Assembly: GCA_021234155.1 (NCBI GenBank)
Contig: JAJEKV010000001.1
Location: 1,733,927-1,797,926 of the forward strand
Source of the DNA: Isoetes taiwanensis
Lineage: Eukaryota; Streptophyta; Lycopodiopsida; Isoetales; Isoetaceae
Length of the DNA stretch: 64,000 nt
Direction of reading: 5' to 3'
The notes under the pieces were generated by a model. That model was not told the DNA's origin. It made no database searches and saw only the letters and a list, made by a program, of their open reading frames with translations. Both the position numbers and the translations under genes were made by a program. Shown here in pieces: positions 7,979-59,062 of this stretch; the stretch's first letter is position 1, and every line of letters starts with the position of its first letter.

Positions 7979-8790
7979 TCATGGAGCTAGTTTCTTCGTT
8001 CTAGGGAATTTTGAAGAATCTTGCTTAGGGTTTATCCTCAGAAATACCTTGTCCTCTATAGCAAACTCGCATTGATGCCTCCTTTGGTTTGCATATTGCT
8101 TTTGCCTATTTTGTGCGACCTGTAAATTATGGCACAAAACTTTCAATTGCTCTTCAGTCCCGTGGATCATTTAATTTGAAGCCTCAACTTGACATAGAGG
8201 ACCTCGCCAATTAAAAAGACATCTGCAATCTTCTCCATAAAGTGCTTGGAATGGGCTCATTTTGAGAGAATCCTCTTACATATTATTGTAAGCAAATTCT
8301 GCAAGTGGTAAAATAGAGTCCCAAGTATGAGAATGATCCATCACATACATCCGTAACATGTCTTCAAGAACCTGGTTAACTCTCTCAACTTCTGAGTACG
8401 AATGTTCTAAAAAAGTCCTTGCCATAATCGACCTGTAAACTTGGTATCCCTATCTGAGACAATTGACATAGGCCATACCATGAAGCCGAAGAATCTTCTT
8501 AACAAAGATACGAGCAATATCCATGGCAGTCGCTGTAGACTTAGTAGGTAGAAAGTGAGCTTGTTTAGTCCCTATCAACTACCACATAAATTGCATCATA
8601 ATCGGATCGCGTTCGAGGAAGGCCAACAATAAAATCCATGCCAATGCTTTTCCATTTCCGCATAGGTATATCCAAAGGTTGTAAAAGACCCGGTGTTTTA
8701 AGATGTGAAGCTTTAACCTTCTGGCAAGGTAAACAACTAAGAATATAGTACTGGATATATCTCTTCATTCCTGGCCAAAAGTAATGCTAA
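7979..8790 (-). pseudogene. Ty3/gypsy integrase relic
   Basis: On the minus strand, 8565-8768 reads as an integrase N-terminal part (C-x2-C of the HHCC finger in SCLPCQKVK) followed by the catalytic-core start IGMDFIVGLPRTRSDYDAIY, with the first Asp present. 7979-8170 reads as the integrase C-terminal region (QNRQKQYANQRRHQCEFAIE then DKVFLRINP). The core between them is interrupted by frame breaks. No gag, protease or RT is seen nearby. It is the pol remnant of the element that probably owns the flanking LTR-like repeats. Confidence 0.75.
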
Positions 8791-8819
8791 CAAACCTTTC
8801 TCCCAGCTGTATCTCACGC

Positions 8820-9202
8820 CGGAACCCAGAGTAGCAGTTGACTGGTGCTCACTTTTTTGGTGAGGTTTCTGCATTAATCAAGGTTAGATTTCTGCTGTGA
8901 TTTTTTATTTTAATTCTAGGGGACTTTGAGTGTATTTTTGGCTAAGGTGGAGGTAAGAGTCCCCCCTTGGCATATTTTTCATTATATTCTCTAGAATTAG
9001 TTGTTTTTCTATTAATCTTTCTTGCGTTTTTGGTCAAGGGGATAAGTTTTAAAGTGTTTGGGAACAATAGATCGATGGTTCGATCTAATGTATTGTTATT
9101 GTTATTGGTCCTCCAATGGTGGTGGTACGAATCCCCCCTTGGATATAGGGACTTTCTTGTGGGTGGCTAGAGAGGATGCCTCCTCTTTTTATTGTACTTT
9201 AA
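8820..9202. other. Degenerate flank of the 281-bp tandem repeat
   Basis: No gene seen. It holds an early copy of the 'ggtggtacgaatcccccc' motif near 9119, which recurs in the tandem units to the right. Confidence 0.45.
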
Positions 9203-9642
9203 CCATGGTGGTGGTACGAGTCCCCTCAAGTGTTAATCATGATTAAGTTGTGATTGCAGGTACAGAGAGGCGACAAATCGACTTGACGTATTATTTTAAA
9301 TCATTCTTGTACATTACCCATGGTGGTGGTACGAATCCCCCCATGTGTGCCTTGCATAGTTATATATTATTCTCAATTATTTTATATGACGTTACCCAAC
9401 CCTCTTGGTTGTGGTGATTATCTAAGGGGCATGCCCCAAGGTTATTGGTCAAGGGTTTAAACCCTTGACAGTATTGCACACTTGATGGAGGTACGACTCA
9501 TCTCTAGTGTTAATCGTGATTAAGCTGTGATTGCAGGTACAGAGGGGCGACAAATCGAATTGATGTATTGTTTTATCTCATTCTTGTACTTTACCCATAG
9601 TGGTGTACGAGTCCCCCCATATGTGCCTTACAATCGATACCA
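9203..9642. repeat. 281-bp tandem repeat (first unit and start of second)
   Basis: Unit 1 runs 9203-9483. Unit 2 runs 9484-9642 and continues after the LINE at 11476-11602. Each unit has 'ggtggtacgagtcccc', 'gattaagctgtgattgcag', 'gcgacaaatcga', and a segment with a tRNA-promoter-like A box (taaggggcatg, near 9424) and B box (gggtttaaaccc, near 9452). The second copy has tagctaagggg and gggttcaggcc near 11536-11579. I infer a satellite or tRNA-related repeat; function is unknown. Confidence 0.6.
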
Positions 9643-11475
9643 ACCACCGAACTGGCCATGGTCATTTTCTGTTTGCCAAGTCATATGGGCATTCTCAACA
9701 AGTGGTGTAAAACCGGGCAGAGGCAGCGGAAATCAGGGACTTAGGCAGGCTTTCGACCCTGACATTTGACCATTGATCACATCTTCACACTCAGGGCCCT
9801 GGTCGAGGACAGCAGGAACCGTCGGGAGGACCTGTACTGCTGTTTTGTGGACTTTGCAAAAGCTTTCGACACGGTACCCCGGGAAAAGTTGTGGGCGAGA
9901 TTGCACCATCTGGGGCTCCCTGTGGATCTATAGAACGCAGTGTACAGACTGTACGAGAGCTGCACAGGCCGCATGCAACTGGAAGGACAGTCATTTGCAA
10001 GCAGTATTGGAGTTAGGCAAGGTTGTCCTCTCTCACCCACACTCTTTGAACTTTACATTGACCAGTTGGAAGCCTGGCTTGCTGCCAATGGGGGAGACGG
10101 TATACAGCTCTTGCACCAGGTCATCCTGCAGCTCATCTATGCGGATGATATGGGCCTCTTGGCCCATACACGGAGGGGCATGCAGCACACCTAGATGCCC
10201 TCGACACATTCTCGCCAGAGACGGACATGCGTGCCAAACTGCCAAGACTAAGGTGGTCCTCATATCCTCCTCACGTCATCCAAAGACCTCCGGCCACTTA
10301 TCGGGCGGATGGTAGAGGTCACACCCCTACCAAGGCACCGGGTTGGAATTTCCGCCCTCAATGTATTGGGATGCATCCATTCCCCTTTGGGTGACCGTGA
10401 TGTTGGAAAGGCCAGACGCAATGGAAAACAATAGTCTGTGGCGTCAGTATGATCGGGGCCACCAATCACATTTGTTCCGGCAATCGGTGGAGCCAGTTCT
10501 TTCGTATGGGGTCGAGGTGTGGGGCCCAAAGGGTGTCTTTGGTAATTTGGAACGACTTGGAGCAGGTCCGTAAGGGGCATTTTTACGCTGGCACTTGGGG
10601 TCAAGCCTCGCCCCCATATCGACAAAATTCATGCCCCCGCAAAGATGCGCCCCTCGATAGACACATTGTTTATTTTCAAAAGGTGGCCATCATGGGGCGA
10701 CACTCGCCTCGCGACTTGGCTTACGCTGCGGGCGATGAGCCCGCAATGACTCGGGGCTTGTTGAAGGACAAGAGAGCTGGAAAGGCGCTGGAACGAGGCA
10801 CATAGGTGCGCCCAGTGCACATGCACGCCGCCGGATAGGCCGAGGGGTTACTTGGACTCTTGTTTCCGGGGAAGCTCGGGGACCACAATGCTCGAACAGT
10901 AAAGATGGCACACTACAAACAAGACATAAACCCCACCCGATTCGAGGCCCACAACTCTACCTGCGTTCTCGGTGCCCATGAAGAAGCAGCAGGATCAACG
11001 CGCCCATTCGAACAGGGGGCCCACCATCTTCGGCTTGAGAGGGGTCGATTGGATTGGAGAGCCGCCGGGGCCGGGCTTTTGTGGTTGCCCATCGGGGTTG
11101 TTGAGGATGAAAGCCATGCCTTCCGTATCCGACCTATTATAGTCGATCGGGGTTCGCTACGCCCTCTTGGTGCGACACGGTGCGCCATCGCACGAAGCTA
11201 CTCAAGACTGCCGGGCTCGATCCCTTGGCCCTACCTCCGTGGAGGTTTTGGATCCGCAGACTCACCTCTCTGCCCCCCCTGGCGCCCACCGAGGTGCCGG
11301 AAATTCATGTGTATATGTATATTTGTACCGTTGTCAAGTTTGTTGTCTTTGACAATTTTTCCTCAGAAGGGGATTTTTTAATCCAAGTAGCAACGGGCTT
11401 GCTGCACCCATGTAATTTGGGTCCCATAGGCCGATTGACCTCCGCGGACGATAAAAGAACCTTCCTTCCTTCCTT
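9643..11475 (+). mobile_element. 5'-truncated LINE (copy 2) with (CCTT)n tail
   Basis: Plus-strand ORF2 relic. RT motifs occur in shifting frames: DFAKAFDTVPREKLW near 9845, GVRQGCPLSPTLFELYIDQL near 10010 and YADDMGLLAH near 10140. The C-terminal part follows, ending with the zinc-finger remnant GVVEDESHAF near 11095. The 3' end carries 'gacctccgcggacgataaaa' and then four CCTT repeats. The element separates two halves of a 281-bp tandem unit at 'cCCTTAC', with CCTTAC present on both sides, probably as the target duplication. Confidence 0.8.
9773..10800 (+). pseudogene. LINE reverse transcriptase, frameshifted
   Basis: The sequence encodes the RT palm of LINE copy 2. The 84-codon frame 9940-10194 holds LYESCTGRMQLEG, then GVRQGCPLSPTLFELY, then LIYADDMGLLA, so the catalytic Asp pair is still legible. 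The upstream part (DHIFTLRALVED, CFVDFAKAFDTVPRE) is in other frames, and stops interrupt it near 9930 and 10192. Longer ORFs crossing the same bases in other frames are shadows. Confidence 0.75.
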
Positions 11476-12159: not shown

Positions 12160-12163
12160 GGTT

Positions 12164-12438
12164 GGGTGAAAGCATGTTAGGGCCTACATAAAAAATTACC
12201 AAAAAGGTACTTTTCTGTGTACTTCTGTGCAAGTACATAATTGTATTTTAAAGTACCTAGACTACAAGATTGACTAAAAGAAATTGTGTTATGTTCAAGA
12301 GTAGTAGTACATACATGTTGTAAGGTACTTTGTGATGTCAAGAAGATGTTAAGAACTCAAATATATCATCATCTTTAACTACCCAGAGTATTTTCCAGGT
12401 AGTTTCCAAAACATGTAGGCCCTAACATGCTCTTACCC
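12164..12438. mobile_element. 275-bp MITE with GGGTGAAAGCATGTT inverted repeats
   Basis: The left end GGGTGAAAGCATGTTAGGGC is matched by the inverted right end with two differences over about 26 bp. GGTT flanks both sides (12160-12163 and 12439-12442), suggesting a 4-bp target duplication. The first 15 bases equal the first 15 of the terminal repeat of the 10-kb element at 14636. It is non-coding. Confidence 0.78.
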
Positions 12439-12442
12439 GGTT

Positions 12443-14093: not shown

Positions 14094-14635
14094 CGAATGC
14101 GAGAAGCAGGAGCATGGACAGCAAGGGCCCCTTTAATGACAAATAAAGTGGATACTGATCAGAATTAGAGCACATTAGGATCATTATGGTCCACATCATA
14201 TTCATCATAGAAAGGTGGTGATGTAGGTGGGAAGAGGCAGCAACAAAAATGCCACTACCATTGTTGCAATGGAGTTTGATCCACATGTAACGGTCATATC
14301 TACTAGCTTTATCAAGCGTGATATATGGAGCAAGAGCATCCTTGAAATCGCAAGCAACCCCACTACAACCTCGTTTTCCATGACATTCATTAAATAATGA
14401 AAAGGTATTGATAGCTTGTGAAATGAGGTAGCCTCTGGGCAGAATGCTCCCATGTTTCCATGGGCAGAAGGATATCCATATCTTTTGCAATGGACCATAG
14501 AGGCAGCGGCGGCAGTAATAACAGCCGCAACAACATCAGCAATATGTATACTATTAGCAACACAAACAATGCGCATTTGCAGCTTTGATATATGCAACAT
14601 TTTCAGCAGAAGCAGTATGAGAAGTTGTAGCATGA
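14094..14635 (-). pseudogene. LINE endonuclease fragment
   Basis: On the minus strand, three blocks follow one another: METWEHS-like (family QETW motif), then GCSGVACDFKDALAPYI, then SRYDRYMWIKL and IFVAAS. This order is characteristic of APE-type LINE endonucleases. The GDFN motif is missing because the fragment ends at the LTR-like repeat. On the other side it is broken by the 10-kb element at 14636; its continuation should lie from 24797. Several stops are present. Confidence 0.65.
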
Positions 14636-14661
14636 GGGTGAAAGCATGTTGTAGTGGAACA
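14636..14661 (+). repeat. Left terminal inverted repeat
   Basis: 26 bp identical to the inverted sequence at 24767-24792. It is preceded by ATGA. Confidence 0.85.
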
Positions 14662-15884
14662 AAAACGTGCATTTTAGCACCACATTTTTGGGTGCTAAGT
14701 GTGGTGGGAACTACCGAATTTGTAGTGGGAGAGGGAGTTATTTTTTCAAAAATACACATGATTACTTATTCAAAATTTTGTCCTTTCAGTCTTATTCAGG
14801 CTTATTCAAAGAACGCATTACCCATCATTTTCCCTCAAAAACTCGATCACGCTCCCTTAATCCCAAGACCATTTTCGGTTCTCAATTTTCATTTTCCCTC
14901 AAAAACTCGATCACGCTCCCTTAATCCGCAAGACCATTTCGATTTCTCGGCAAGAAGATCGATCACTTAAATGGCTCGATCATCTGGACTTGAATGCCAC
15001 AGGATACACCTACAAGGAAATGTACTGGGCAAGAAAAGCATTACGCCACACAAGAAGAAATCGAAATCGCTTTGGGGACCGAAAGTATTAGGAAAATCCA
15101 CTTATTGTGTCTGGGGATGCCCATGATTCTCTGTTGTTTAGAATATTGTTTTGTTTCATCATGCAAAAGTTGAAGAATATGAGCAAGGAGAGGTATAATG
15201 AATATATGTGCCTTTACAAAAAATCACAGCGGGAAGTGTGCCCAGGGGAGGCATGGCCTCACGTGACTATGGTCATTATGATTACCTTCACACAAAAGGA
15301 AAAGAAATAAATTGGTTGAGTTTCCGCACAGTTAAGAGAAAAGGGTCTCAAGCCTCCGTCCCAACGTAAGAGGAAGCATGCAATCATTTCAAATAGTGAG
15401 GAAGTAGAGCAACCCGCCACGGATGATGCTTCCTCTCTTGAAATGACTAGGCCACAATTCAAGCCTCCTCAAGTCAGAAGAAGAATCTCGGGAAAATCAC
15501 TCAAAAAATAGGTACTTTTCAACCCTTTTCTTCCGGAACCACCATATGATGCAATTTAATATTGGAACCGTTATTTTCCAGCAAGGTCTAGCAAGCTTGA
15601 ACAATCGTGTACACCACTTACTTTCTTCATTTGGGTGTGTTGTAAGTTATGTGTAGGAAATTGAAGCCGCTAATTTCGAGTTGTGGTGGATAATTTCAGT
15701 TCACAATGAGTATGTAGCTCCAAATGTGTTACATGTGACGGTCATATGGTGCCGCTTATATGTTAATAATGTAGTTTGTAGCATATGTAGTGTCACATAT
15801 AGTACCAAACGTGGTACCTTATCCGAATAGTGAATTGGCTTCCATATGTTTCTATACTTAGTGTCATATGTGATGTTAGATATG

Positions 15885-16285
15885 GTGATACTTGTGAATG
15901 GTGGATTGTCCGCCATATGTGGTGCCAATCGGCTGCGCTAAATATTGCACCACGCTATCCGCCACATATGGGGTGGTGGATGCCCTCACGGATGTGGTGC
16001 CTACGTGCATTGTGGTGCCACATGTGGTGTCTAATCGTGGCACCACTATGGATCCCACATTTTGCACCACATGTGGTGTCTTTGGCGCCATTTGTGGTGC
16101 GGCAATGGATTGCCATGTGGTGCCTTGGGTGCATTGTGGTGCCATATGTGGTGTGGCATGTGGCACCAGTTTGGTGTCACATGCCACACCACATGTGGTG
16201 AATATGGCGCCATTTGTGGTGCAAAGTTTGTCATGATGGAATTTGTGGTGTGTAAAGTGGTGCCTGTTGTGTCATGTGGTACTAA
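15885..16285. repeat. GTGGTGCC-type minisatellite
   Basis: Irregular repetition of 'tgtggtgcc', 'atgtggtg' and 'gccacatg' on both strands gives many short palindromes such as ccacatgtgg. ORFs crossing it (up to 123 codons, rich in Cys, Val and Trp) are products of the repeat, not genes. Confidence 0.75.
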
Positions 16286-16597
16286 CCTTGGATTACTTTC
16301 GAGGATGAATTCAACGGGACACTAGGAGAATGGATCAACTCTACAAGATCGAAGTGATTCGATTGTAAAGGCAAGGTTGCAAACTTGTGATCAAAGCTGC
16401 AGTGCTACAAATGAAGGTTCAAGCAACTTGAGTTCCGCATCGACCGAGAAGATGAATAAAGATTTAAAAATGATTAAGGATAAACCAAGTCGATGGCAGA
16501 CGGTATTCTGGCTATATGCCAAGATAGAGAGGTCGAAATGAAGGAACTATTACCGTAACTTGAGCGTACAAAAATCGAGGAGCTTAATCTGTCACCA

Positions 16598-17035
16598 GTG
16601 GGAAGCGACACAACAAAGATTGAAAGTGCCGGAACCAAGTTTAGAGAGGTTTCATCTTGCAAGGACCGTCTTCCTTTATTTGTCTTGGATCCACTACTGC
16701 AGGACCTTGATAAGGCTGAAGATTATGGTAGTGGTTGTCCATTCTGTGGCAAGATCCTCCAGTGGATGGGGAAACCACTACCAACTTTGATTGCTGAATG
16801 CAGTCACCAATACCATCTTCCATGTCTGCTCAGCCTCTTGAGGTACTTCATAACAAAATTCCTGAAGTGCTTAGTATAATTGTATTCTCATTGACAAATT
16901 TGCGTTCACTTTGCAGGATTTGTAATCACTGTTGCATTGAGAATTGCTGTCATGAATTTTCTACAGCATGGGTACAAGCCTTAGGTGTGAGTAGGGAGGA
17001 TCAAAAGCAACTTCAAGCTACTGAGGCACTTACAG
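16598..17035 (+). CDS. RING-H2-like zinc-finger gene fragment (two exons), possibly captured
   Basis: Exon 1 (16598-16842) and exon 2 (16917-17035) join across a 74-nt intron (GT at 16843, AG at 16915-16916), creating an AG|G Arg codon. The joined product contains a C-x2-C-x17-C-x-H-x2-H-x2-C-x7-C-x2-C array, starting CPFCGKILQWM and ending RICNHC, which fits the RING-H2 spacing of E3 ubiquitin ligases. Exon 2 ends at ACAG|GTGAGC, a good donor, so more exons may follow; none was found. The true start is unknown: an in-frame stop lies upstream at about 16554, and an open serine-rich stretch in another frame lies at 16330-16540. It lies inside the 10-kb TIR element, so a captured host gene piece is the simplest reading. 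It may be non-functional. Confidence 0.45.
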
Positions 17036-17099
17036 GTGAGCACTTATAGGTAGCTCGAAAAGAGAGTAAGCCTGGCTTAGTCTCCTTCATTTTCTGTTT

Positions 17100-17305
17100 A
17101 TCGTATCTAATTTGCCCCCTAGGATGACATCGCTCACTCAGGTGGCGAATTAGATATCTCAAGCAAGAAACTCGAAAAGGGAGTAAGCCCGACATAAAAC
17201 AAGATCCTGGCTGGCTTAGTCTCTTTTGCTTCTCCTGTTTTGTGTATCTAAAGTGCCCCCTGGGATGAGATCGCTCGCTCATTTTAGGGGACACTTTAGA
17301 TATAT
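17100..17305. repeat. Two tandem hairpin repeats
   Basis: Hairpin 1 (about 17104-17157) pairs 'atctaatttgcc' with 'ggcgaattagat'. Hairpin 2 (about 17236-17302) pairs 'atctaaagtgcccc' with 'ggggacactttagat'. Both are followed by a/gAGAGTAAg-type sequence and preceded by 'ggcttagtctc', so a hairpin-bearing unit of roughly 130 bp was duplicated and diverged with compensating changes. Confidence 0.6.
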
Positions 17306-19930
17306 AAAAACAGAACATCAAAAAGAGAGTAAAAAAAGTCCGAACTTAGTTAAAAAAAACCAAAACATAGTTACAATCAATTGTGATTCAATTCCGTGTT
17401 TTAGAGCATGGTGCCGCTTTTACTAATTCAGGTCTAATCGTTCATACCGGTGGCAATGACTATGTGAGTCCATCTAGCACACCAAAAGGGAATTATTTTC
17501 TACCCTCAAAGGTAACCAAGTCTTGTTTGATGCAATTGGGATATGTAGCTTACTTCTTCATCCCTACTTTGTAGATATAGATGTACAATGTGGGTCGATT
17601 AGGGGACAAGACACTCCCACCCCTTGAAAAGCATTAGACACTTTATAGGCTTCGGGCAAATCAGAAGATGCATCGTTACGTGAAATCGGACAAATCAAGA
17701 GATGTCAACAAATCCAAGAGGTGCATCAAGTCAAGCTCCGGTGAGGTGCTCCAACCGACAAGAATCGCCGGATCAACAGATGCATTAAGTCATGCTCCAC
17801 ACCAATCGCCAAATCGGCCAGATGCATCAAGGTTATGATCCAACAAATCGCTTTCGTGAATGTAAGTCACAAGGTAACTTCCAACCTTTTGTGCCTCTTC
17901 TTTTTTAATTTGACCCATATAGTTACCGGGACTGTTAAATTTTTGCACTGGAAGTGTCTCGAGAGAAAAAGCAAGAGCAGAATTCCAAGCAAAAGACACC
18001 TCCAAGACATTTCGAGGAAGTTTCCATCCCCATCGAATAGATGTCGGGGCGTAAGTTTCTAGCCCCGCACCAAGAAATGTCAAGCGTAAGTTTCCAGCCC
18101 CTGCACCAACTCGTCCATGCAGAAGACTACAAGGTTAAGCCCAATCCCGCTTGTTTTTACTACAATAGAGTTCTGGGTAGAAGCTATGACAAGAGTGAGT
18201 CCATACCCTTCGCTAAAGAAGATGATGTTAAGTTGATCACACTTAATGTAACCAAGTGGGTAGTAACTAGACCAGCCGGGCGAGTTCATAGATTGGTGCA
18301 AAAATTTTTCATATAGCACTTTCGTCCAAAACTGAGCAGCTCAAAACTTGAGAGTCATAGTTAAGGGAGCATTGATGAAACACAAGGACAAATTCAAGTT
18401 CATATGGAGTCGGGATCATCGTATTCAACACAAATTTATTTAACAAGTAAAAAGCCAATTTTTTGAAGCACCGAAAAAGGTCTACGACAATTTCGTGTTT
18501 CACAAAAAGAGAACGTGCTTCTCATTGATGATAGCGACATACAAAGGGTACCTCAATGCGCCTAAACACCATGATCCGGCCCAAAAACCGGAGCCCCCCG
18601 ATAGAGTAGATGGCAATTTCCTCATGAATGATCTAAAGGTTTGGCTTGAGGGGTTTTTGAAGGCGGAGGAATGTGCAAAGTTATGTCTAAAAGCAACAAA
18701 ATGTGAATATGTTTGACACCGAGAGTCAAATTTGTATTAATATGATGAAAAACATAGAACTAAAGCCTAGAAATAGTATTATTGTGTATATGATGTAACC
18801 TCTCTTGACTTTTTAATATAAACAAAGTTTTACTTCAATTGTTCATTTCTTGGCTATTTCAATGTTCCTCAAGGTTTTCAATGATCTTCCATTTGCTGAA
18901 TGTAAACTTACACCACCAAAGACGAGGACATAGCAGTGTTAAGAGCAAGACATCCAACCCGAGTAACACTTGCCACTTGAAGTGTTTAAAGGACAGCAGA
19001 GCCTCTTGTGCTTGATCAAGAGGCAATCGTAATATTGGAGAAAAGTAGGGATTGGTTCAAAGGATGATAGTCCATTTCTTCATGAGGTTAGTAATTTAAT
19101 ATAAACAACTCAGATTTGAAGTCTTTCGTTGTTTCTTAAATCATCTTGTTTTACGGACCTTGGACTTTGGCGGTGTATGCACCAATTCAAGATCAAGCAT
19201 GACATGGAGCGAAGTTCCATTTCATGGATCCGCTCATTTACACATTACCGCCGAGCGAGCTTGTTTCAAAGGACAAACTGTTGCACCCTCAACTTGCAAT
19301 TTCGAATGTACCATTGCCAAAGATGTTATCGCTAAAGACCTTTGGGCCGGTGTATGTCATTGTAGGTCTTGGAGGTCGCCGGTTAAATGTCACCGGTGTG
19401 TACCATTTTGATGACCTAGAAATGTACAAGGGCTCCGGCACATCATGAGTTTTGTTGAGGATGCAAACACAAAATTCCCAAGCACCATAAAAGCTGCTGC
19501 GCCACAAGAAAATTACAAGTTCCCCCACCTCGACTCGATTCTTTGGTCGTGGGTGGTCCCGCTATATGTGTCTTCGTGAAAAGAAAGTTGTGGTCGCGAT
19601 GTAATGCGAGACTTGGACATACTATCCCAATGCAAGGTGAGTTCAGTAAATTTGAAGGTATTACTCATCCAATGTGAGGCCCTGATATGTTTGTTGCGGT
19701 GGTGTACCAATTTCTAGTTGCGGTATTTTGTTGGACACGCCGCTGGAATGATGATTGATGTTGTGAAGCACGATTCTTTGTAGTAATGAAGTCGAGGTTG
19801 TGAGATCAATAGATCTTTACTTGTAATCACATGTTTGTATTATTGTAACCAAAGAGGTTATTCTTGTAACCTATTCTTTCATTGACACTCTAATGTACAT
19901 TGTTGTATACTATTGTATACAATAGACTTT
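17306..19930. other. Interior of the TIR element; broken ORFs only
   Basis: Short plus-strand ORFs occur at 18041-18316 (91 codons), 18495-18716 (73) and 19224-19448 (74). The latter two look protein-like in composition but match no family that I recognise. They may be exon remnants of the element's own genes. Confidence 0.35.
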
Positions 19931-19976
19931 TTGGCTGACGACTGTGAGCAACACTCGGGTGGAGTTCAAATCTCCG
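19931..19976 (+). other. tRNA-like promoter pair (possible SINE head)
   Basis: An A-box-like 'tggctgacgactg' at 19932 is followed after about 30 bp by 'ggagttcaaatctcc' at 19961-19975, which is a perfect small T-arm stem with the TTCAAAT loop. The GAGCAAC between them also occurs in the SINEs at 49 and 52 kb. No full tRNA cloverleaf is evident. Confidence 0.35.
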
Positions 19977-20012
19977 TAAGAAATTGATGTATTCAAAGAT
20001 TCATGACAATGT

Positions 20013-20600
20013 GGTGTTACATGTCGTGATAGATGTGGTGATGCAAATGGTGCATGTGGTGAATCATGTGGTGCATTTGGTGAACCATGTGGTGAATCAT
20101 GTGGTGAATCGTAGGTGGCATGTTGGAGCTTACGTGGCATGTTTGACTTTCATTGACCAACATGTTTGGTGATGCAAATGGTGCATGTGGTGAATCATGA
20201 GGTGCATTTGGTGAATCATGTGGTGCATCGGTGGGTGGCATGTTGGAGCTTACGTGGCATGTTTGAGCCACCTTGGCATGTTGGAGCCTAGTTGGCATAT
20301 TTGAGCCACCTTGGCATGCTTGAGCCTTTACATGACCTTTGTTACATGTTTGACTTTCATTGACCAACATGTTTGGTGATGCAAATAGTGCATGTGGTGA
20401 ATCATGAGGTGCATTTGGTGAATCATGTGGTGAATCATGTGGTGCATCGTAGGTGGCATGTTGGAGCTTACGTGGCATGTTTGAGCCACCTTGGCATGTT
20501 GGAGCCTAGGTGGCATATTTGAGCCACCTTGGCATGCTTGAGCCTTTACATGACCTTGGTGAATCATGTGGTGCATCGTAGGTGGCATGTTGGAGCTATT
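20013..20600. repeat. Mixed minisatellite: GTGGTGAATC and inverted 19-bp satellite units
   Basis: Blocks of 'atgtggtgaatcatgtggtg' alternate with blocks of 'ggcatgttggagc' and 'ggcatgtttgagccacctt'. The latter are the reverse complement of the 19-bp satellite at 55191-58686. A larger unit spanning about 20170-20480 is partly repeated at 20380-20600. Confidence 0.85.
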
Positions 20601-20609
20601 CATGAATGG

Positions 20610-21405
20610 CCAATTCAGGATAGATATATATATATTTTTTTTAATGTTTTTTAGAAAATAAAATAATGGTCCTTTCGAGGTTATTATTAGTTGCCTACTA
20701 AATCTTTAGGAATAAAGATGCTAATGGTACGAAATCCTAAAATCGTAGCCTACGAAATTAATTTCACGCCAGCCTTTTATAGGCTATGGTCGTGAAGGAG
20801 AAGCATCGTCCAATTCCTTCCACGGAATGTCGGCCGGCTGCCGCGCTCTCCCTCCGCGCTCTGCCTCTCCCTCTCCCTCTCGCTCTCCCTCCCTAAAAGC
20901 GCCTGAAACCGCTTTCAATTCCTTTGGCACGTGTGATGGCCAGTTATGAAATAGGATCTTGGCCAAATTACCATTTCTGGAGGGCGAACACGAGAGCCCA
21001 AGTGCAGAGCCCCGAAGCACGAGAGCTCGAGTCTCATTCCACCTCTTAAAAGCTCAAGATCTTTTGGAGCTTTGGAAGAGGTGGAATCCTCCCCTAATTT
21101 CGATTCCTCTCGATGAAGCTTCTTCCCGATGATCAATTTGATTCCCAAGATTCCGATAACGAATCGAAATAAGACTGCAGAAGAAGAAGAAGAAGAAGAG
21201 GTAGAAGGCTTAAGAAGAACATGAAGTTTTTTGAAACTCCAAAATTTTCTCTGAGTAAGTAGCATGCATGCATTAAATTTTTGCTTTCTTTTATGTATTC
21301 TAAACTAATTTTCTTCACTTTTTCTTACGTGATGAAGCTTGAAGTCCCGATTTGTGCTTTTTTTTTTTTCTTTTTATCAAGTTAGTCTGAGTGCCTTTTG
21401 TGCCT
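20610..21405. other. No recognisable gene
   Basis: Contains a CT-rich tract near 20840-20890 and a GAA-repeat near 21180-21200 that would encode poly-Glu. No supported gene. Confidence 0.4.
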
Positions 21406-21409
21406 TTGT

Positions 21410-21800
21410 ATTATTTTTGAAAAAGCGGATGGTATATAGGCCTTAGTGCCTTCATTTGATCTCACCCCCTTGTGAACTCACCCCTTGTGATACAGGCCTT
21501 AGTGCCTCTTTGTAATATATATGATGGCCTTAGTGCCTTTTTGAATATATGATGGCCTTGTGCCTTTTTTGAACCTTGTGTAAATTTCTAATTTCAAGTA
21601 TTCGGTATCTTACATTTTAACATATGATGGCCTTTGTGCCGATCAGAATCCGTGCCTTGTGCCTTTTGTTTAATCGAGAAAATAGTTTATAATGGCTTTG
21701 TGTCTTGTGTAAATTTGTGCCTTGTGTAAATTTCTAATTGCATTTTTACCACGTGCCCTGTTTCTAAAAACAGATACCCACAGCCTTAGTGCCTTTCTTT
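21410..21800. repeat. 'GGCCTTAGTGCCTTT' imperfect repeat
   Basis: The phrase 'ggccttagtgcctttt', often with 'atatatgat' in front, recurs at least six times with changes between 21438 and 21800. Non-coding. Confidence 0.7.
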
Positions 21801-23239
21801 GATCTCACCCATATGTCCTAACAGGGCCTTATGCAAGTTTAATTCGGTTTTAATTCAGTTTAATCCGCTTATACCTTGGAATTCATTCAACATTCAAGTA
21901 CAAATTTTCAGAATCAAGCATAAAAATGAGAATGCAAAACGTAAACTTCTTTATATTCATAAAAGTTTCTATACATTACCCTTTATACAATTGCCACGAT
22001 GAAGTGGATTTTCCTAATACTTTCATATCAATTCGGGGACCTAATTTGGGATCCATATATTGCCATCACCAAAATCATCAAGATACTATCGGGAATTGAG
22101 AGCCATTCCATTTCTCGACCGGTCAAAAATGGTCAATGCCCCCGGTGATTATGGTGAAATCTGTGGTGAAAGCCGCAGAAAACTGGGGTGAAGTTGTGGT
22201 GATGCAAACGTTGTTTTTATATTTCAAAGGGAGAAAAATACATATGGAAATCTACCATACCGTTAGAATAGTTCATACTTCTTATGAAATGAAGTATGCG
22301 AAAAATCGGGGAAAACTATAACCCCGAGCTTCTAGTATTATCAAAATGCATTAGAGATGACATACGATTCATCGGGCCTCAATCGGATCCCGTGATTGTG
22401 AGATCTCAGAACTCTTCTTCTTCCAAGCACGTTCAAGACTTCATCAAGTGTTTTCATTTGAATAGTTGGTGTAATCCAAAGAACATTAAAACATGAGCTT
22501 CTGGCCGCTCCCACTTATGATCTGATTCATAAACTATTGTCTCAAGTTGTTGTGTCTCCATGCATCCGCATGTCGAGCACTTTTTAATGGCTGAAGCATG
22601 GATCATTTCCTGCTTTAGTTGGATGAACATATCCGCTTCCTCAAGCTCGGGGGAGAGCCGAGAACTCATCCTCGAGAATCATACACCACCCCTGAGAACC
22701 CGCTTACCGCACCAGCCTCTGTTAAGTCTCCCGACGCATCTGTGTAAACAACATCATCCTGTAAAACAACATCTACTACAAAGAAAGGCAACCGCCTATC
22801 AACGCCTTTGGCTTCTAATTCTTTAAGCCCATCGAGGAATTAACCTATGTTTTAAGCCTAGAATACCTCGGAATTCATGGGTCCTCCGCTCCTCTAATAT
22901 CCTCATTTCTCGGGTTTATTTGCTCCAAAGATAGGTCCTACAGGATGCATCGCATTTGAACTGGGTGAAATTGTTTGTGCTCGTGTTCTCCCGTTTTCTT
23001 CCGCCATAGATTTGGATTGTGATAAGCCAATGTCCGCATGCAAAACTAGATTTATGGTTTTCCCCAATGCTTCCTGCGACCGGCTTTTGAATGATTGACC
23101 TTGCATTTGATGTGACAGATTTCCAATGATTCTGTCCCATTCTGGTCCATTCTTAATGTAATTTTTCGTGTGTCACTTTCACCCCTCCAATTAAACCGTG
23201 AGATTTCTATTAAACATAGCATATATTATGGACATTCAT
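21801..23239. other. Interior of the TIR element; no supported gene
   Basis: Scattered ORFs below 92 codons on both strands. GTGGTGAA-type motifs appear again at 22150-22205. No known domain seen. Confidence 0.35.
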
Positions 23240-23645
23240 CTTACACCTCGTTATTCACCACACTAGGCACCACATAGAATATATTACAAAGACATTTATT
23301 TTACACCATATTTTTAACCACACTAGGCACCACACTAGGCACCACACTATGTTATTCACCACACTAGGGACCACATAGCATATATTATGACAAAGATTTA
23401 TTTTACACCATATTATTCACCACACTAGGCACCACAAAGCGTATATTTAGAGCATTTATTTTACACCATATTTTTTCACCACACTAGGCACCACATAGCA
23501 TATATTACAAAGATGTATTTTACACCATGTTATTCACCACACTAGGCACCACAAAGCATATATTGACAACATTTATTTCACACCCGTGCCTCACCACACT
23601 AGGCAAAGACATATCATATATCACAAAGCATTAATAGGCACCACA
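23240..23645. repeat. About 60-bp repeat with 'CACCACACTAGGCACCAC'
   Basis: The phrase recurs near 23256, 23317, 23419, 23477, 23536 and 23590 with 'tattttacaccatattattc' between copies. The inverted form GTGGTGCC links it to the 15885-16285 array on the other side of the element, giving the element two inverted repetitive arms. Confidence 0.8.
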
Positions 23646-23681
23646 CACCACAAGCAATCACTAACCACAAAGAACCACATA

Positions 23682-24700
23682 TCACAAGCAATCACTAACC
23701 ACATACCACATTAACAATAAAAAATGTGGTGAAGATGAAGAAATGAAATAACTTGTGATTCTTCCGGATAGTGAGTGGCATGATCCTCTCTTACATTTCG
23801 CTCCAATCTTCCTCGAACTTAACATCCTTTTGCATTTGAGAGACCCTAATGTTTTCGGGTCCAAAATTGTCGCACAAGTTCTATGACCCGCTCTTCTAAC
23901 TCTTTTGTACAAAACCCATTTCCCCCCTTTGCAATCTATCTCTTCCCTCTTCAATTTTGCTTTGGTAAGATTCCTAGGATGAACACCAAATATTTACCAA
24001 AACCCCGAAAGCACCGACTGGGATTAGCACTTTCGTATTAATGCTTCCTCTTACGGCCATAGCAAGGCAACTTCTCTTGGGTCGCTAAACCGCATTGCTT
24101 TGTTAGACTTCTTCACAAGTTGAATGGAAGCCCCGAGGTTGCTGGACCACAATGCTCTTTGGCTTGCAAATCTTTCAGCCTCTTAGCCAAGTATGTTTGT
24201 CCATTGTGTCATCCTCCTAGATAATCTAGTAAAACCTCTTTCTTATGTTTGTTAGATAAGCCTTTTAGTGGTGCTATGAAATGAAGATAACAATTTTAAT
24301 ACCATCCGACGCTTTGGTAGAGGCCGTTCGGTGGATCCTCCCTCCGCCAAGTTGCAATTTTTGCTAATTCTTCTTTAGCTTCCCTTTGTCTTTTCCTTTG
24401 GCGCCTTTTTATGATCCCGTTCTTGTTCGAGTTCTCTTTCTCTTACCCGTGCCGGTAGATTTGCTTCGAAATTAAATGATTGAAGGTATGAACGGATTGA
24501 TCCACAACCGGATTAAGCGCCATAGCCGGTGTTTCCGTGAAAGGCTGGTGGGTCGTGGGTTTAGAAATCGGTTCGGTGGAGATTGGAATGGGACGGGTGG
24601 CATAGGAAATTGGAATGGGACGGGTGGCGTAGGAATCGGGTTGTTGCGATTCAGAAATGATTGAATCAGGCAAGACATCACTAGGCGCCAAACAAACATT
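23682..24700 (-). other. Possible degenerate coding region
   Basis: Minus-strand stretches of 75-90 codons are open. One (24443-24691) has a Pro/Ser/Thr-rich composition with a short internal repeat (SYATRPIPI twice), and a charged Glu/Arg-rich stretch follows near 24380-24450. No domain is recognised. It could be the N-terminal region of an element-encoded protein. Confidence 0.25.
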
Positions 24701-24766
24701 TAAAATCGCACCACAAATTTGATATCTCCCACCACATTTTTAGGAGGACAGGGGGGACACCCAGGG

Positions 24767-24792
24767 TGTTCCACTACAACATGCTTTCACCC
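24767..24792 (-). repeat. Right terminal inverted repeat
   Basis: Exact inverted copy of 14636-14661, followed by ATGA. Confidence 0.85.
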
Positions 24793-25056
24793 ATGATGAA
24801 ATGCGTAGTTTTCTATGGATCAATGCAGCCTTACCACCATTCTTTTGAATATCCTGGACCTTTTGTAAATCCTAACATCTTGCTAATTGTTGTGGCTTAG
24901 TAAGATAGAAATCCAAATAGAGATGTCCCTTTCAATCGCTTTGCATGCTTTAAGACATCCATTTTAGCACTCAAATTTGGCACAGTAAATTTCATTATGC
25001 ATGGGCGGTGAGATTGCAATGCTTTTTGCCCTGTGTGAAACAGTAACAACAACAAG

Positions 25057-25171
25057 TGTTGTGAGGTTCAATTTAGCCAACACTAATGTCTGTATGTTGC
25101 AAGTCCTCTGATGTGTTGTGAGGTTCAATTTAGCCAACACTAATGTCTGTATGTTGCAAGTCCTCTGATGC
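25057..25171. repeat. Perfect 57-bp tandem duplication
   Basis: A 57-bp unit beginning 'tgttgtgaggttcaattt' and ending 'aagtcctctgatg' occurs twice head-to-tail without differences, indicating recent duplication. Confidence 0.9.
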
Positions 25172-25253
25172 TTCTTCTTGCATGCCACGAATCACCAAAT
25201 TACACTAACGGTTGTGCCTGTTAATGTATTCTCGATGCCTCTGACCAGATGTA

Positions 25254-25565
25254 TCTATCATTACATCCTAAATAAAGGCCTTAAAACAATTCATGGGCAG
25301 GTATACTTCCTTAAAGAATAAGTGCATGCCAGGGGCATTAACTGTTACAAGGGTCGGCCTTTGTTTATCCAGAAAAAAAAAAAAAAATCTAATAAGGGAA
25401 TGGCAGCAGTTATCTTGCATCCTAAATAAGGGCTTAAAAACAATGCACGAGAGGGTATACTTCCTTAAAGATTAAGTGCATGCCAGGGGCATTAACTGAT
25501 ACATCGGTTGGCCTTTGGAAACAAATCGCTCGCCTATCCAGAAAAAAAGGGAATGGCAGCAGTTA
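25254..25565. repeat. About 155-bp tandem duplication
   Basis: Both copies carry 'catcctaaata', 'tatacttccttaaaga', 'catgccaggggcattaactg' and 'gggaatggcagcagttat', with an oligo(A) of different length. Non-coding. Confidence 0.85.
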
Positions 25566-25569
25566 TACG

Positions 25570-28080
25570 AAAACTTTGTGCCCTTGACTAGGGTTGTAGC
25601 ACTATGTAGTTTCATACAAGCAGATGGAGTCATTTGAGAAATGGCAGTACAATATATCCCATACATACTACCCAGAACGAGACGAGGATTTGGAAAGAAT
25701 GATTTTACTACTGGCTACAAACTCCAGGTGGGAATACACACTTCTCACCTAATTTCAATCAAGATTTATATGTGTTAGAGCAAGGGCTACTAATTTAGGA
25801 TTGACAAGACCAAGACTCCAGCAGAAGCTACAGCTGCTACACGAACCAGGGATCATAAAATATAGTGTTTTATTTTTCCCTCCAAAATATGGAGAGGGAG
25901 TATGATTCTGATGGCAAATCCATAAGCTCGGATGAAGAGGATTTAAATGCATACTTCCTAGATAAAAAGTGCAGTGCTATCTAAATATTTGTGAGGCCAG
26001 TGTTGAAAATACGTATGAGCAGAAGGGCATGGGAAATCTAAAATGGGGCGCCAATGAAGGAATTACAAGCAAAAGCAACAAGAAAGGTTATAATGGTAAC
26101 CATGGAAAAACAGGCAAAAATGTTTTGGATGATAACTCTTATGTTCCAAAAACCCAACCTGCGGACGAATATTGCTCAGACCATGACACACATGCACATT
26201 TTTTGCACGTATGAGCATTATTGGTTATGGCTTTCTTGGTATTGTGTCTGACTAAGGTGGTGTTTTTGCGGGCAGTCAAACCACGCATGTGAATTGAAAG
26301 TTATAACCTGTTAAATCGGGCAAGTGAATGTTACACGGTCAACGAATTCTTATCATATCGTATTCATTCATCCACTTACCCATGAAGACTCCTTAAGTTT
26401 ATGAAATTCTTGAAGCAGTGATAACATCATAGCCAGACCACCAAACCTATACATAGTCAGAAACGGATCGCCAATGGATGGGCAGATGTTTGTGCTAGAG
26501 AGGTATGTGACAACGAAAAAAAGTTCCACATGCGTTGAGTTGAGGAAGGTGGGATCATCAATATTTGAGAAAAACTGGAAGTTTGATAATCATACAATAA
26601 TATGATTTACAATTTTTTGTTTGAAATTGAGAATTCGTGCCATGTAACAGTGGCTATGCTTCTTAAATATCTTGCATGGAGTGGAGAGGAATTTGTATGG
26701 GTCAACTTGCATTGCACAAATTGCTTTTATCTTTATCTTTAGTACAATTGAAATTTCTAGGAGGTGAAGCTAAAAGGCCCTTAGCCCCCTTTCTCCATTC
26801 AAAAGGATCCTCCATGGCAAATATGGAATTAAATTATTTCTATTGTTATGTAAGAGTGGGCAATGAACACTATTTAGATATACAACACCTCTTTCATGCC
26901 CTGATGCTTGCTCTATCGGACCAAATGAACTCTCTAGAACATAGTAGACATGCATTAGATATAGTGTGAGCTTACTTGTTGAATATGAACAACTCCAAGC
27001 TCTGGAAAACAATTTGCAATGCATATGGAGAGATTCCTTAGGTTAGGAGGTGCTAGTGCACGATGGCATATTCAAAGCCTAAGGGCATTCATAAATAGGT
27101 GTAAGGCATTAGAAGCAATAACATATTTTATACCATGTGTAAAAATATGTTGAGACAATAAAAAAGAAAATTTATTTAAACTGAGAAAAGGTGACCACCC
27201 GTAAATTGGGTGCCCCACCATCGAGTACTGGAACCCAGCAGAATAGGCAGTGGGACAGCAGTCTGGAATCAGTAAAGAATGAAGAGTAATTCTTGTCAGA
27301 GGAGTTTGCCGGGGTGGCCAAATAATAGTGGTTTCAAGTGCCTCAATTTGGAGGTCCAGATTGAGGCCCAGCTATGGTAAGCCTTATGTCATGTGTGGAT
27401 AGAAGGATTTGTCTAGGTAAGAGTTCTACGAAGAACTTCTGAAAATAATAAATTTCAATCAATCAAGTTCCCATGAAGGTCCGGCTCCATTTCTTGCAAA
27501 TCAGCAGGTAGAGCCAGGGCCCTGTACACTCCTGATAGTCGAACTCAAATGTGACTTGAGTAAAGGGCCATGTCAATGTTGAATATAAGTTCTAAAGGGG
27601 GCTTACAATTTGGTCCTCGACCTTGAGGAAGATGAACCAAAAAAAAATCTCCTTTGAGATGTTAATATTGTAAGTTTGGCAATTGTTATGTTTTTAAAGG
27701 CATATTCTTTTGTTGGGTTCTGCACATATGGAACCATCTACGAATAATATGCATGTTTGTGCATAATGAAATAAGACGTTCATAATGTGTGTCACAATTT
27801 TGTATGCAAATGGAAGGTTGAGATGTTTGTAACTCACTCTTTTGGGTGTTCCTAAACATTTGTCTACACAAAGCACATGCACATTTTTTGCACAAGCCTT
27901 ATTGGTTATGGCTTTCTCAGTAAGGTGTTTTTGCGGGCAGTCAAACCACACATGTGACTTGAAAGTTATACATCATTGATTCTACAATGCAACAATGACA
28001 TTTCATCATATTTTCTGCATCAAACATAAACTAGTTAATAGAAAGAATCTAGGGAAACAGAAAAAAGGATAAAGATAAGA
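25570..28080. other. Intergenic with a pair of direct repeats
   Basis: Segments 26187-26312 and 27876-27975 share 'gcacattttttgcac', 'ttattggttatggctttct' and 'gtgtttttgcgggcagtcaa' in the same order. ORFs here are below 100 codons and unrecognised. The right repeat lies beside the 3' end of the Harbinger transposase. Confidence 0.6.
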
Positions 28081-28081
28081 A

Positions 28082-29200
28082 TTATACCCTTCTCTCATTG
28101 AAAACTAGATATTGCGTTAAGTTTGAGCGTATACTTTCAGCCTCATCCATTTGTTGGTAGACATTTTTTGGCACGTCATCGTCGTCATCACTATCGCAGT
28201 CCTCTTCCGCTAGTAGTTGTTCATATTCAACATCTATATCTCTTGACTCAAGAAGCAAGTTATGTAGCAAGCAATATGTAAATATAAGCTTTGGTATAAA
28301 CTCAATATCTATAGCCAAGGTAGAATGCAAGCACTTGAAGACTCTCTTCAAGATACCAAAAGCTTGATCAATAAACAATCTTGCTTGTAGGTGCTTAAAA
28401 TTATAGAAATTTTTAAGTGCACCAAGTTGAGGCTCATCTCCTTGGTATGGCGTCATGAGCCATGAAATGGGATTGTACCCTTTGTCACCAATAACATATG
28501 GGTGCAAACTATAGTTCCCATTGATCACTAAACATGGCTCGTACAAGATTTGTTGGCGTTGTGCTTTATGTGCAAATTCTGAATTTCTGAGAACACGAGC
28601 ATCATGTACTGATCCTGGGTAACCAATGCACACATCAAGAAACTTCTTATTAGTGCCACATACAGCTTGTAGAATAACTGAATGGTGGCTGTTTTCTGTC
28701 ATAGTAATCTGCACCTCCTATATCTGGTCGATTAATTTCTACATGTGTGCAATCAATTGCACCAAAACAATTTGGCAGACAACTAAATTTGCGAAAGGAA
28801 TGCTCAATATTTTGGAGCTCGTCATCAACAGGCCACTTAATTTTATGTCTAAAGCAACGATTAAATGCACAACAAACTTCCTTCAAAACCAGACATAATG
28901 TGCTTACTCCAATTCCAAACTTCTCAGATATCTCGTGGTAGTCAACACCTTTGAAAAGCTTGTACAATGCACAACCAACACGACATGCTACAGACTGCAA
29001 GTCTGTAATGAGTATCCTGCTTCTGAATGAAAGAAGCAAGTACTTTGCATATTGCAACAAATGATTTCCTAGTCTCATATTCTTTCTCCATCGACTATCT
29101 CGTCATATACTTCGCGCAAGAAGCGGCCAAACCAAACAAGGCTTTGTGGTTTCACCCACCAAGATGATTCATGCCTCAAACTAGGAGCAGCACAAGCCAA
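28082..29200 (-). pseudogene. PIF/Harbinger (HARBI1/ALP1-like) transposase, frameshifted
   Basis: The N-terminal piece near 29100-29160 reads WWVKPQSLVWFGRFLREVYD, typical of HARBI1-like proteins. A 142-codon frame (29078-28650) carries the helix-turn-helix region and the first catalytic Asp in CFGAIDCTHVEI. A second frame (28714-28082, 210 codons) carries HHSVILQAV, the second Asp in GSVHDARVL (residue 38), then GDKGYNPISW and RLFIDQAFGILKRVF. The third acidic position, normally Glu in ERAFG, is Asp (residue 116). The C-terminus is acidic (EEDCDSDDDDD). The frames switch at a GAAAAC run near 28700. An upstream stop separates the first piece. These nuclease-fold proteins cut and join element ends; this copy looks inactive. 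Confidence 0.82.
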
Positions 29201-49433: not shown

Positions 49434-52400
49434 GAAATGAAATGAAATTTTATTATTACGTCTTCGAGACCGCCAGGTCTATGAGACGATTACATTGCAC
49501 TCAAAATTATAAAATAAGTCATCCAGTGCGTCCTCAGAGAACAATACACTGGGCTCCTCTACCTCAATCTCCGTCACCCTTTGTTGCTTCATGGGGGACC
49601 TCTCTATGGCTAAGAATGTCCATAATACAACCTCAATGCATGAGCACACTTTGTCGAAAAGAAATCAACAAGCGAAATAGCACTGACCCCATGCTTGACC
49701 CGGATATCCGAATAAGCGCGACAAAAAAGCAGGACATGGGCCTCATCTTCTACTACTCCCGCATCACATAGCTGACAATGTCTAAGATCATGCGCAATGT
49801 GCGCCCATCTCCGATCTCCACACCAAGTCGGTGTGAGCTCAACCGTATTCTTGCGATTGCATGCCTAAGTTTCCGGCGATATGGGTTCCCTAAGATATCT
49901 TGTGCTTCTTGCGAGAGATGGATTTATGTGAGCCTTATAATACTCTTTCTTCACGGTGGCACGCTCCATGACTTACTCAAGAAACTATCTCGAACCCAAC
50001 CACTAATGTCCTCTTTGTGCATCTCAAATCCTGTATGTTCATCCCCATTTCATAAGCCATCTGTCTATATCAGACACCGGCCTTACTTTTACGGTTTCCT
50101 CTAAAGCAAGTCTAGGCAAGCTATTATTCGGCATATCATATAGGACTTTGCACATATAGCTAAAGATGATGCGCAAAGAGCCTCGACGAAAGTGGCATCA
50201 TTCCACTTTCAACTAGCATCATGTCATATGGTGTTTGCATCTTTGTGCCCAACTCCGTATGAAAAAAAATTTCTTTCGTATCTTTTCCACTTTTTGCCGC
50301 CTATCATTAGCAAGGCCTGGTCCCCAGACTTCACAGCCATATAGCACAACCGTGCGGACAAGCACCTTGTAGAGCATGCGCTTCATCTCAAAATTCCATA
50401 TCTCTGCATTCACACACTTCCTTTGCATAGCATACAACGCTTTTAGACCAAGATTCACCCTATGTTCCTTTGCTTGATTCCAATTAGGACTCTTATCTAC
50501 GGTTAGGCCCAAATATTTGTAATTCTCTACCACTTCCACTTGCCTATCCTTATAGTAGAATCGAACATGTTTCGTCTTTTTGCCCCAAACACCTTTGCCT
50601 TGGTCTTATCTAGATTCACCCGCATGCCCTTATCCTCATAAAATGCTCCAAGCACATCCAAATGCTTTTGCATCCCTTGTATGCTTTCGGGACAAGCAAT
50701 ACTACATCATCAGCATATAATAGAAGCATGAATACATACTCTCGCAGAGCGGTACCATCTCCCCCATGTGCTCGTACCCACCCTTCAAGTTGGTCTATGA
50801 ATAAGCCGAAAAGAGTAGGTGACAGTGGACATCCTTGCTTTACTCCCATATTGCTTTCTACCATCTCATCACATAACTCCACAAAGGGAATGACAAGCGG
50901 TGCACTAGAACCTTGCCATAAAGCATACCTACGCGTATGTCCGAGCTCAATCGGGATGTTCAGGTCTACCATTCTCCGCCACAAATTCGCTTTATTAACC
51001 ATGTCGAAAGCTTTGCTAAAGTCTACAAAAGTAGCATCTGAGTGGTTTTTCTTCTTGCCGACTACTGAGTCCATCATAGCACGAAGAGTAACCAAGTGGT
51101 CAATTGTGGACTTTTTGGGTCTAAAGCCCGCTTGTCCAATGGCTCTAGCATTGTTATCCTCTGCCCAAGCACTTATCTTGCGCTCAAGGATAGAAGCGAA
51201 TAATTTTGCATATAGACTGCCAACCATAATAGTGCGGTAGTTACTTTCGGATTGGATACTCGATTTATGTAGCGGTACCACCCTATTCACTGCCGGGGAT
51301 GTTGGAAAGCCATCTCTCGATTGCCATATTAAACATATCTACCGGCTTAATTGCTACTTCTTCTCCTGCCCATTTAAACATTTCAGCCATAAGACCACAA
51401 GCGTCTGTAGCTTTGCCATTGGCAAGCCTTTTAAGCCCATCTTGCACATCGCCTAGAGTGAAAGCAAGTGTATCGATATAGCATATGTGTCTTCATTTGC
51501 CTCCATCATAGCTTACGCCTCGGGAACATTATCGACTTACGTACATGTGCCATAAGTGCCTCTACATGTAATCCATCCGTTTCTATATTTCATGGGTTTG
51601 AGTCTTCTCGAACTTCTTGGATCTACCGGCAATTCCTCCATCATTTTCTTATGTTTCTTGTATAGGTATGCCTTCTTTTTATTTTTAATCAGCCTAATGT
51701 ATATCCTCCGTTCACATGCTTTCTACGCCCCTTCGGCCGCTCTAAATTTTGCCCTCGATGCTTGTAATTTGCGCAAGATCGAACCAGCTATTGCAAGGCA
51801 GCCCCATCCTTTGACGATATGATACAAAGCAACTATCCACGATTGCAACAAAATCTCGGACAATGCATCACTTTTTCCTTGTAATGTGTCAGGCCATACA
51901 ATAGAAGTCACTTTCTGTTCACATATATCACCATATTTATCTGCTTTGTCGTACTTCAAATATATTCGTTTGCTTTTATGTACGGCTTCACCCTTACAGC
52001 TCCATTGCACCTTAATCTTTATAGAGATGGGCACATGATCTGAATTTTCATTTTCATCTCCAATTGACATACCAACAAGTCGTTTCTAAGAAAAAGAGGG
52101 TTTGGCAATGACATAATCTACTACACCGGCATTTTCGCAGTGCGTTTGCACGATCCGGGTATCTAGCAGTGCCATTAAAGATTACCATCTCAAAGCCACT
52201 ACACAAATGCAGCACATGACGCCCCTGCGGTGTTGGCCATTTCACACCATCATCTGATAACCTGTTCCAGCCTGATTGTTTTAGTTCGTCATTATCCATC
52301 ATCTCCAACCACTCTGTTTCTCCATCCGGACTAACCATAGTGCGCCGTTGGTTTCCCGTTCATCCATTAAAATCCCCTAACAATACTACTTCCGGCTGTC

Positions 52401-58975: not shown

Positions 58976-59062
58976 CCTAGGCTCGAACATGCCAAGGTGG
59001 CTCAAACCACCTAGACTCCAACATGCCACCTAGGCTCAAACATGCCAGGTGGCTCAACATCA
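58976..59062. repeat. Satellite remnant
   Basis: Four to five degenerate 19-bp units ('ctcgaacatgccaaggtggc', then 'aacatgccacctaggctcaa'). Confidence 0.85.

Follow-up and report, generated by a model that had tools for sequence, protein, structure and literature searches.

The 10,157-bp element at positions 14636-24792 of the window (the whole 64,000-nucleotide stretch of Isoetes taiwanensis DNA analysed here) is very probably a class II, cut-and-paste transposon with terminal inverted repeats (TIRs), whose longer copies are likely to encode a DDE/D transposase. It belongs to a real, recently active transposon group, of which the window holds a broken copy. Several hundred matches to its 26-bp ends are found in the genome, and insertions are flanked by 4-bp target-site duplications (TSDs). 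In fuller copies a transposase-like gene under purifying selection faces a gene for a phosphatase of the NLI-interacting-factor-like (NIF) type. The coordinates of all features are given in Table 1.

The limits of the element proved exact. Its first and last 26 bases (14636-14661 and 24767-24792) are inverted copies of each other at 26 of 26 positions and ATGA stands on both flanks in the window sequence, as the preliminary description of this DNA had stated. We then joined the flanks by one ATGA and used them as an empty-site query; the hits were to further copies of an interspersed repeat. In five cases a single alignment spans the junction (base 300), starting at query base 1 or 233 and ending at bases 557-560, and in the one paralog read at letter level a single ATGA reads through the junction. 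The insertion target (14336-14635 plus 24797-25056) is itself this interspersed repeat, with 85 matches when the best 40 of 440 candidates were scored. The earlier proposal that the element had inserted into the endonuclease of a long interspersed nuclear element (LINE) was rejected, since Pfam found no endonuclease domain in the flank frames scanned (five of six frames for 24797-28000) and the sole reverse transcriptase match in the flanks, a fragment of RVT_1 at ~10,009-10,185, was below cut-off and lies ~4.4 kb from the element. The other flank match, also below cut-off, was to an unrelated model. A 57-bp perfect tandem duplication (25056-25169) lies immediately outside the element.

We searched the genome (1,658,258,908 bases in 1110 contigs) for the termini, allowing up to one mismatch. 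The first 15 bases gave 2788+2814 = 5602 matches against 23+30 = 53 for the reversed control, and the 26-bp end of the long element gave 393+376 = 769 against 0+0. From plus/minus terminus pairs within the first 100 terminus places we hand-picked 11 further long elements of 8.7-15.9 kb, leaving out wider pairs (e.g. on C46, C66, C166, C223, C224 and C230, and a second pair on C67). In each of them the flush duplication is exactly 4 bp long, and the 11 sequences all differ, one being the ATGA of the window copy; when position pairs are drawn at random from the window, the longest flush match is 4 with a frequency of 0.0048. Examples of the duplications, taken from these elements and the small ones described below, are GTTG, CAAC, TGGT, AGTG, GTGC and AGCC, with no evident common motif. 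The abundance of the termini and the 4-bp duplications are thus far beyond chance, and the pairing of termini with comparison of flanks, which the preliminary description had proposed as a check, returned the consistent 4-bp duplication it expected in these 11 pairs, and also in most of the small elements fetched and in the diverged element described below.

The window contains a 275-bp miniature inverted-repeat transposable element (MITE) at 12164-12438, which had been regarded as a relative of the long element. It shares with it the first 15 bases and 24 of the 26 TIR bases and is flanked by GGTT, and its left end has 155+167 matches in the genome against 0+0 in the control. We fetched 20 copies, picked from 40 scored among 476 candidates, and 18 of them have a 4-bp duplication. 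All 20 differ from the window copy at one common base and four have one extra difference, while among themselves they differ at 0-2 of 275 bases; such near-identity indicates recent activity. Four of four further MITEs also have 4-bp duplications: one is a 269-bp variant of the window MITE and three (L001, L003 and L005, 313-321 bp) form a second family. In this second family the left end has the same 15 bases, and the right end, GGGTAAAAGCATGTT, takes a form that lies between those seen in the two long subfamilies.

Alignment of the window element with the 11 other long elements revealed a common skeleton and, in 7 of the 12, an additional block with a minus-strand gene, which is the shared open reading frame that the preliminary description had suggested seeking in the longest copies. 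Its catalytic exon reads ...VVDFAENY...SDDREHD...FSDGAASQFK...HGKGEHDG... and can be fitted by eye to the DDE/D layout (strand 1-Asp, strand 4-Asp, helix 4-Glu/Asp), with a candidate triad, likewise chosen by eye, of D221, D306 and E345 or D347; 84 residues separate the first two, and 38 (E) or 40 (D) precede the third. Basic residues abound in the upstream exon, whose HTH_3 match is below cut-off. At least 138 matches to this gene are found in the genome (133 scored of 8426 candidates), roughly in two tiers, of up to ~90% and ~60% identity. The ratio of nonsynonymous to synonymous rates (dN/dS) was 0.15 and 0.13 in two pairs from the second tier, which corresponds to the diverged subfamily, and the N-terminal exon, compared between tiers, gave 0.15; for the catalytic exon across tiers synonymous sites are saturated, with a proportion of nonsynonymous differences (pN) of ~0.2. 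The transposase-like gene is therefore under purifying selection. We found no relatives outside this genome in IMG/VR (searched with an alignment and two motif patterns), GTDB or phage records, and only chance matches (E 2-8) in plasmids; plants and animals are scarce or absent in these collections, and the contig scans used few short motifs, so that these negatives say little.

The second gene of the fuller copies is convergent with the first. The NIF frames of copy L025 and of the diverged element match PF03031 (E 3.6e-15 in the latter). A search with the NIF protein (150 matches scored of 5320 candidates) yielded many stop-free matches, in groups near 75% and 53% identity. A listed NIF place lies within 15 kb of 24 of the 133 transposase places used (five second-fragment rows of the 138 were left out), against ~0.36 expected, and 23 of the 24 are convergent; one NIF place neighbours two transposase places, one of which is the sole non-convergent case. 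This linkage is probably an undercount, because both lists contain best matches only. Purifying selection on the NIF gene is present, and weaker than on the transposase-like gene.

The diverged element spans 12,096 bp (C1066:2378258-2390353). It starts with GGGTAAAAGCAC, is flanked on each side by TAAT and carries NIF and transposase genes placed and oriented as in the first subfamily. Frames related to its NIF frame occur in 11 of the 12 elements of the first subfamily, the window copy among them. The diverged element also contains an exon similar to Ulp1 proteases (PF02902, E 1.2e-4, 22.5 bits, cut-off 20.7), which, like the NIF frame, lies on the strand opposite to the transposase; its remaining frames matched no family above cut-off. 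In this element (L082, L080, L059 and L081 joined) there are further open frames at 8777-9343 and 10119-10505 without a Pfam family, the latter found in inverted orientation in 9 of the 12 first-subfamily elements.

The catalytic exon is gone from the window copy: tblastn did not find it there, and the breakpoint of the deletion is identical in the alignments with L025 and L019. The window copy is therefore a non-autonomous derivative. Three other ~10-kb copies (L011, L013 and L015) and the 15.9-kb L027, which are 86.7-90.8% identical to it over the aligned parts, lack the catalytic exon as well. When the window copy was scanned with Pfam in six frames, stops being read as X, nothing matched, since its genes have decayed and it lacks the catalytic exon; this deletion accounts for the earlier remark that no transposase motif is visible inside the element. 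The matches to RING models of the exon type with zinc-binding-like residues (Table 1) were all below cut-off.

Table 1. Features of the long element and of the related MITE, in window coordinates.
Feature	Position	Strand	Basis or remark
Left TSD of MITE, GGTT	12160..12163		
MITE, 275 bp, same 15-bp terminus	12164..12438	+	
Right TSD of MITE, GGTT	12439..12442		
Left TSD, ATGA	14632..14635		Flank comparison; empty-site paralog with single ATGA
Long TIR element, 10,157 bp, non-autonomous, internally deleted, 4-bp TSD	14636..24792	+	
Left 26-bp TIR	14636..14661	+	769 genome matches at up to one mismatch, 0 in control
Left subterminal region	14636..17635	+	TGTGGTG 14 times, CACCACA 3 times
Decayed exon of left-hand gene, homologous to diverged-element exon, weak	15167..15427	+	tblastn E 1.6e-4 (15217-15351), 1e-3 (15167-15427)
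Decayed exon, coiled-coil and CxxC/HxxxC zinc-binding-like residues	16328..16843	+	tblastn E 2.9e-21
Decayed NIF phosphatase gene	17939..18668	+	tblastn E 6e-29 to L025 (17939-18571), 7.6e-15 to diverged element (18273-18668)
Internal minisatellite block	20036..20597	+	Related to satellite array at 55.2-59.1 kb
Right subterminal region, inverted polarity	21793..24792	-	CACCACA 16 times, TGTGGTG 3 times
Remnant of further open reading frame common with diverged element	22465..22645	-	tblastn E 1.1e-4
Deletion junction	23196..23214		Longer copies hold ~3.3 kb (L025) or ~4.4 kb (L019) here, including the catalytic exon
Decayed N-terminal transposase-like exon	23753..24523	-	tblastn E 1.4e-42 (23889-24491), 6.5e-23 (23753-24523)
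Right 26-bp TIR	24767..24792	-	Inverted match to left TIR, same genome count
Right TSD, ATGA	24793..24796		Flank comparison; empty-site paralog with single ATGA

The subterminal regions are rich in TGTGGTG, in opposite polarity at the two ends. All 12 related elements show this inverted arrangement, L027 only weakly on its left side (2 to 1), and the diverged element shows it too; elsewhere in the window, as far as 55 kb, there are only 0.09 TGTGGTG and 0.02 CACCACA per kb. The repeats are plausible candidates for transposase-binding sites. CACTA elements also have inverted subterminal repeats, together with CACTA termini and a TSD of 2-3 bp, while TSDs are 3 bp in PIF/Harbinger and 8 bp in hAT elements, and piggyBac targets TTAA. 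CACTA was excluded by the GGGTGAAAG ends and the 4-bp duplication, and a CACTACAA string within the TIR, taken at one point as a hint of CACTA, was dropped because duplication and ends disagree with it. We excluded piggyBac, with no TTAA among the duplications, and also hAT and Mutator-like elements (MULEs), given that the longest flush match is 4 in all 11 long pairs. A PIF/Harbinger assignment does not fit either, DDE_Tnp_4 being absent from the six frames of the window element. Overall, a reading as CACTA, PIF/Harbinger, hAT or MULE with an unusual TSD can point to the likeness of the subterminal repeats to those of CACTA and to the occurrence of Ulp1 in MULEs (PMC2836005, as far as its available part goes); it is nevertheless very improbable, as the 4-bp duplication is nearly uniform and no DDE model of these four superfamilies matches, whereas the same library finds DDE_Tnp_4 elsewhere in the window.

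Taken together, it is likely that the group works as a cut-and-paste DDE/D element. A DDE/D-type transposase, encoded inward from the right end in the longer copies, would bind the GGGTGAAAGCATGTT ends and also the inverted TGTGGTG repeats, and would then excise the element. Insertion through cuts staggered by 4 bp would leave the 4-bp duplications, with no evident target consensus. The convergent NIF-type phosphatase gene of the fuller copies may be a passenger or a helper, and the same holds for the Ulp1-like exon of the one diverged copy. Having lost the catalytic exon, the window copy would move only in trans, as would the 275-bp MITE, both presumably mobilised by this protein.

Several observations weigh against this picture. 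No transposase family in Pfam, NCBIfam or PDB matched the protein above cut-off (NCBIfam gave two matches far below its cut-offs and PDB one chance match), and the hits below cut-off were to unrelated models, so that the DDE/D label, which we consider likely, draws on sequence layout, linkage and selection. The candidate acidic positions show only moderate conservation: among the mostly decayed copies, D221 is found in 35/39, D306 in 22/35, E345 in 27/36 and D347 in 29/35, the mean over positions being 0.57. A third pair of transposase genes, very close to each other and in the second tier, has a dN/dS of 0.56, and two open NIF copies have one of 0.49. Relatives of the Ulp1 exon, seen in one element, are found in none of the 12 first-subfamily elements at E <= 0.01. 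Finally, two of the 20 MITE copies lack the 4-bp duplication (flush matches of 3 and 1), and the putative link between MITE and transposase is drawn from 15 terminal bases and the length of the duplication.

Other features of the window were noted alongside. A tandem array on the minus strand at 55191-59060, made of CATGTTTGAGCC/GGCATGTTGGAGCC-type units, is ~66-75% identical over at least 300 bp to the minisatellite block of the element, and either may have seeded the other. The DDE_Tnp_4 match (E 4.6e-28 at 28085-28717) marks a PIF/Harbinger-type transposase frame spanning 28085-29102, whose adjoining frame at 28653-29102 has no Pfam match. On the minus strand there are two fragments of LINE-like reverse transcriptase (RVT_1), at 50619-51338 and 53174-53986, and a probable host gene for a transporter of the major facilitator superfamily (MFS)/sugar type occupies 60475-62371 of the same strand, with PF00083 and PF07690 in 60475-61878 and no Pfam match in 61904-62371.

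What the group should be called depends on known superfamilies with 4-bp duplications. The preliminary description was right that hAT, MULE, PIF/Harbinger, CACTA and piggyBac do not fit, but it overlooked Sola and the phosphatase-like gene. Judged by description only, Sola comes nearest among the known superfamilies in the length of its TSD and its occurrence in plants. We consider the chances evenly balanced that the group is a lineage of Sola (Sola1, Sola2 or Sola3) enlarged by extra genes, a comparison made from descriptions. Duplication length, element size and host group agree with the accounts of Sola in the available parts of the sources, whereas AWWT-type duplications, as in Sola2, are found in none of the 11 long elements and in one of 18 MITE duplications (ATTT), and a NIF phosphatase is not mentioned in the available parts of the Sola literature examined.

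That we are dealing with an undescribed DNA transposon superfamily, with a new transposase, a 4-bp duplication and a phosphatase partner gene, is possible, though we do not favour it. The lack of any matching family above cut-off, and of relatives in the viral, prokaryotic and phage collections or beyond chance in plasmids, speaks for it. Conversely, those collections are poor in plants and animals and were scanned by contig with few short motifs, and Sola may have no Pfam model. Only tentatively can this be extended to a plant superfamily defined by GGGT(G/A)AAAGCA ends, 4-bp duplications, inverted TGTGGTG repeats, a transposase outside the searched families and a convergent, selectively maintained NIF-type phosphatase that might act on host proteins during transposition. 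Titles and abstract openings of the open-licence literature gave no description of a NIF phosphatase in a DNA transposon, nor of such a group in Isoetes. In any case, the phosphatase partner and the unmatched transposase make the group a new variant at least. One review lists, in its available part, only seven TIR superfamilies in plants (PMC10741241); here a single genome holds thousands of termini of a group with 4-bp duplications, in which a phosphatase gene is kept beside the transposase. If confirmed, the group would close a gap in the annotation of plant repeats and could be studied as a recently active system; it would also raise the testable question of why a transposon carries an FCP1/SCP-like phosphatase.

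The likenesses to known systems are therefore partial. Phosphatases of the NIF/FCP1 type such as UBLCP1 share the PF03031 domain with the protein described here, which has a weak match to UBLCP1 (E 0.0032); unlike them, it is encoded inside a transposon, and its motif I is DFNGV in two open copies against the canonical DxDx(T/V). MULEs that carry Ulp1 are, like the one diverged element here, plant TIR elements with an Ulp1-type protease (PMC2836005, available part), and differ in their duplications of 7-12 bp (PMC10741241, available part) and in their transposase domain, which was not found in this group. Ginger1 elements share the 4-bp duplication and, in some members, Ulp1; they differ in duplicating CCGG (75%) or CCGT/ACGG (24%), in their TGTNR termini and in their Gypsy-type integrase (PMC2836005, available part), none of which is seen here, no integrase domain of Pfam having matched, and a Ginger1-type element is extremely improbable. 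Sola, as far as the available parts of the sources describe it, is a TIR superfamily with a 4-bp duplication, a DDD transposase, highly variable termini and a size of mostly 2-9 kb, with some elements above 15 kb (PMC10741241); it is reported from Physcomitrella (PMC10741241, PMC9033089) and Capsicum (PMC9033089), and Sola repeats appear in the annotation of the fern Ceratopteris (PMC6890710). The group from Isoetes resembles it in the length of the duplication, in variable TIRs, in elements longer than 15 kb and in its occurrence in non-seed plants, and departs from it in carrying a NIF gene, which those accounts of Sola do not mention, and in duplications that are not AT-rich as those of slime-mould Sola2 are (AWWT and similar; PMC3627910).

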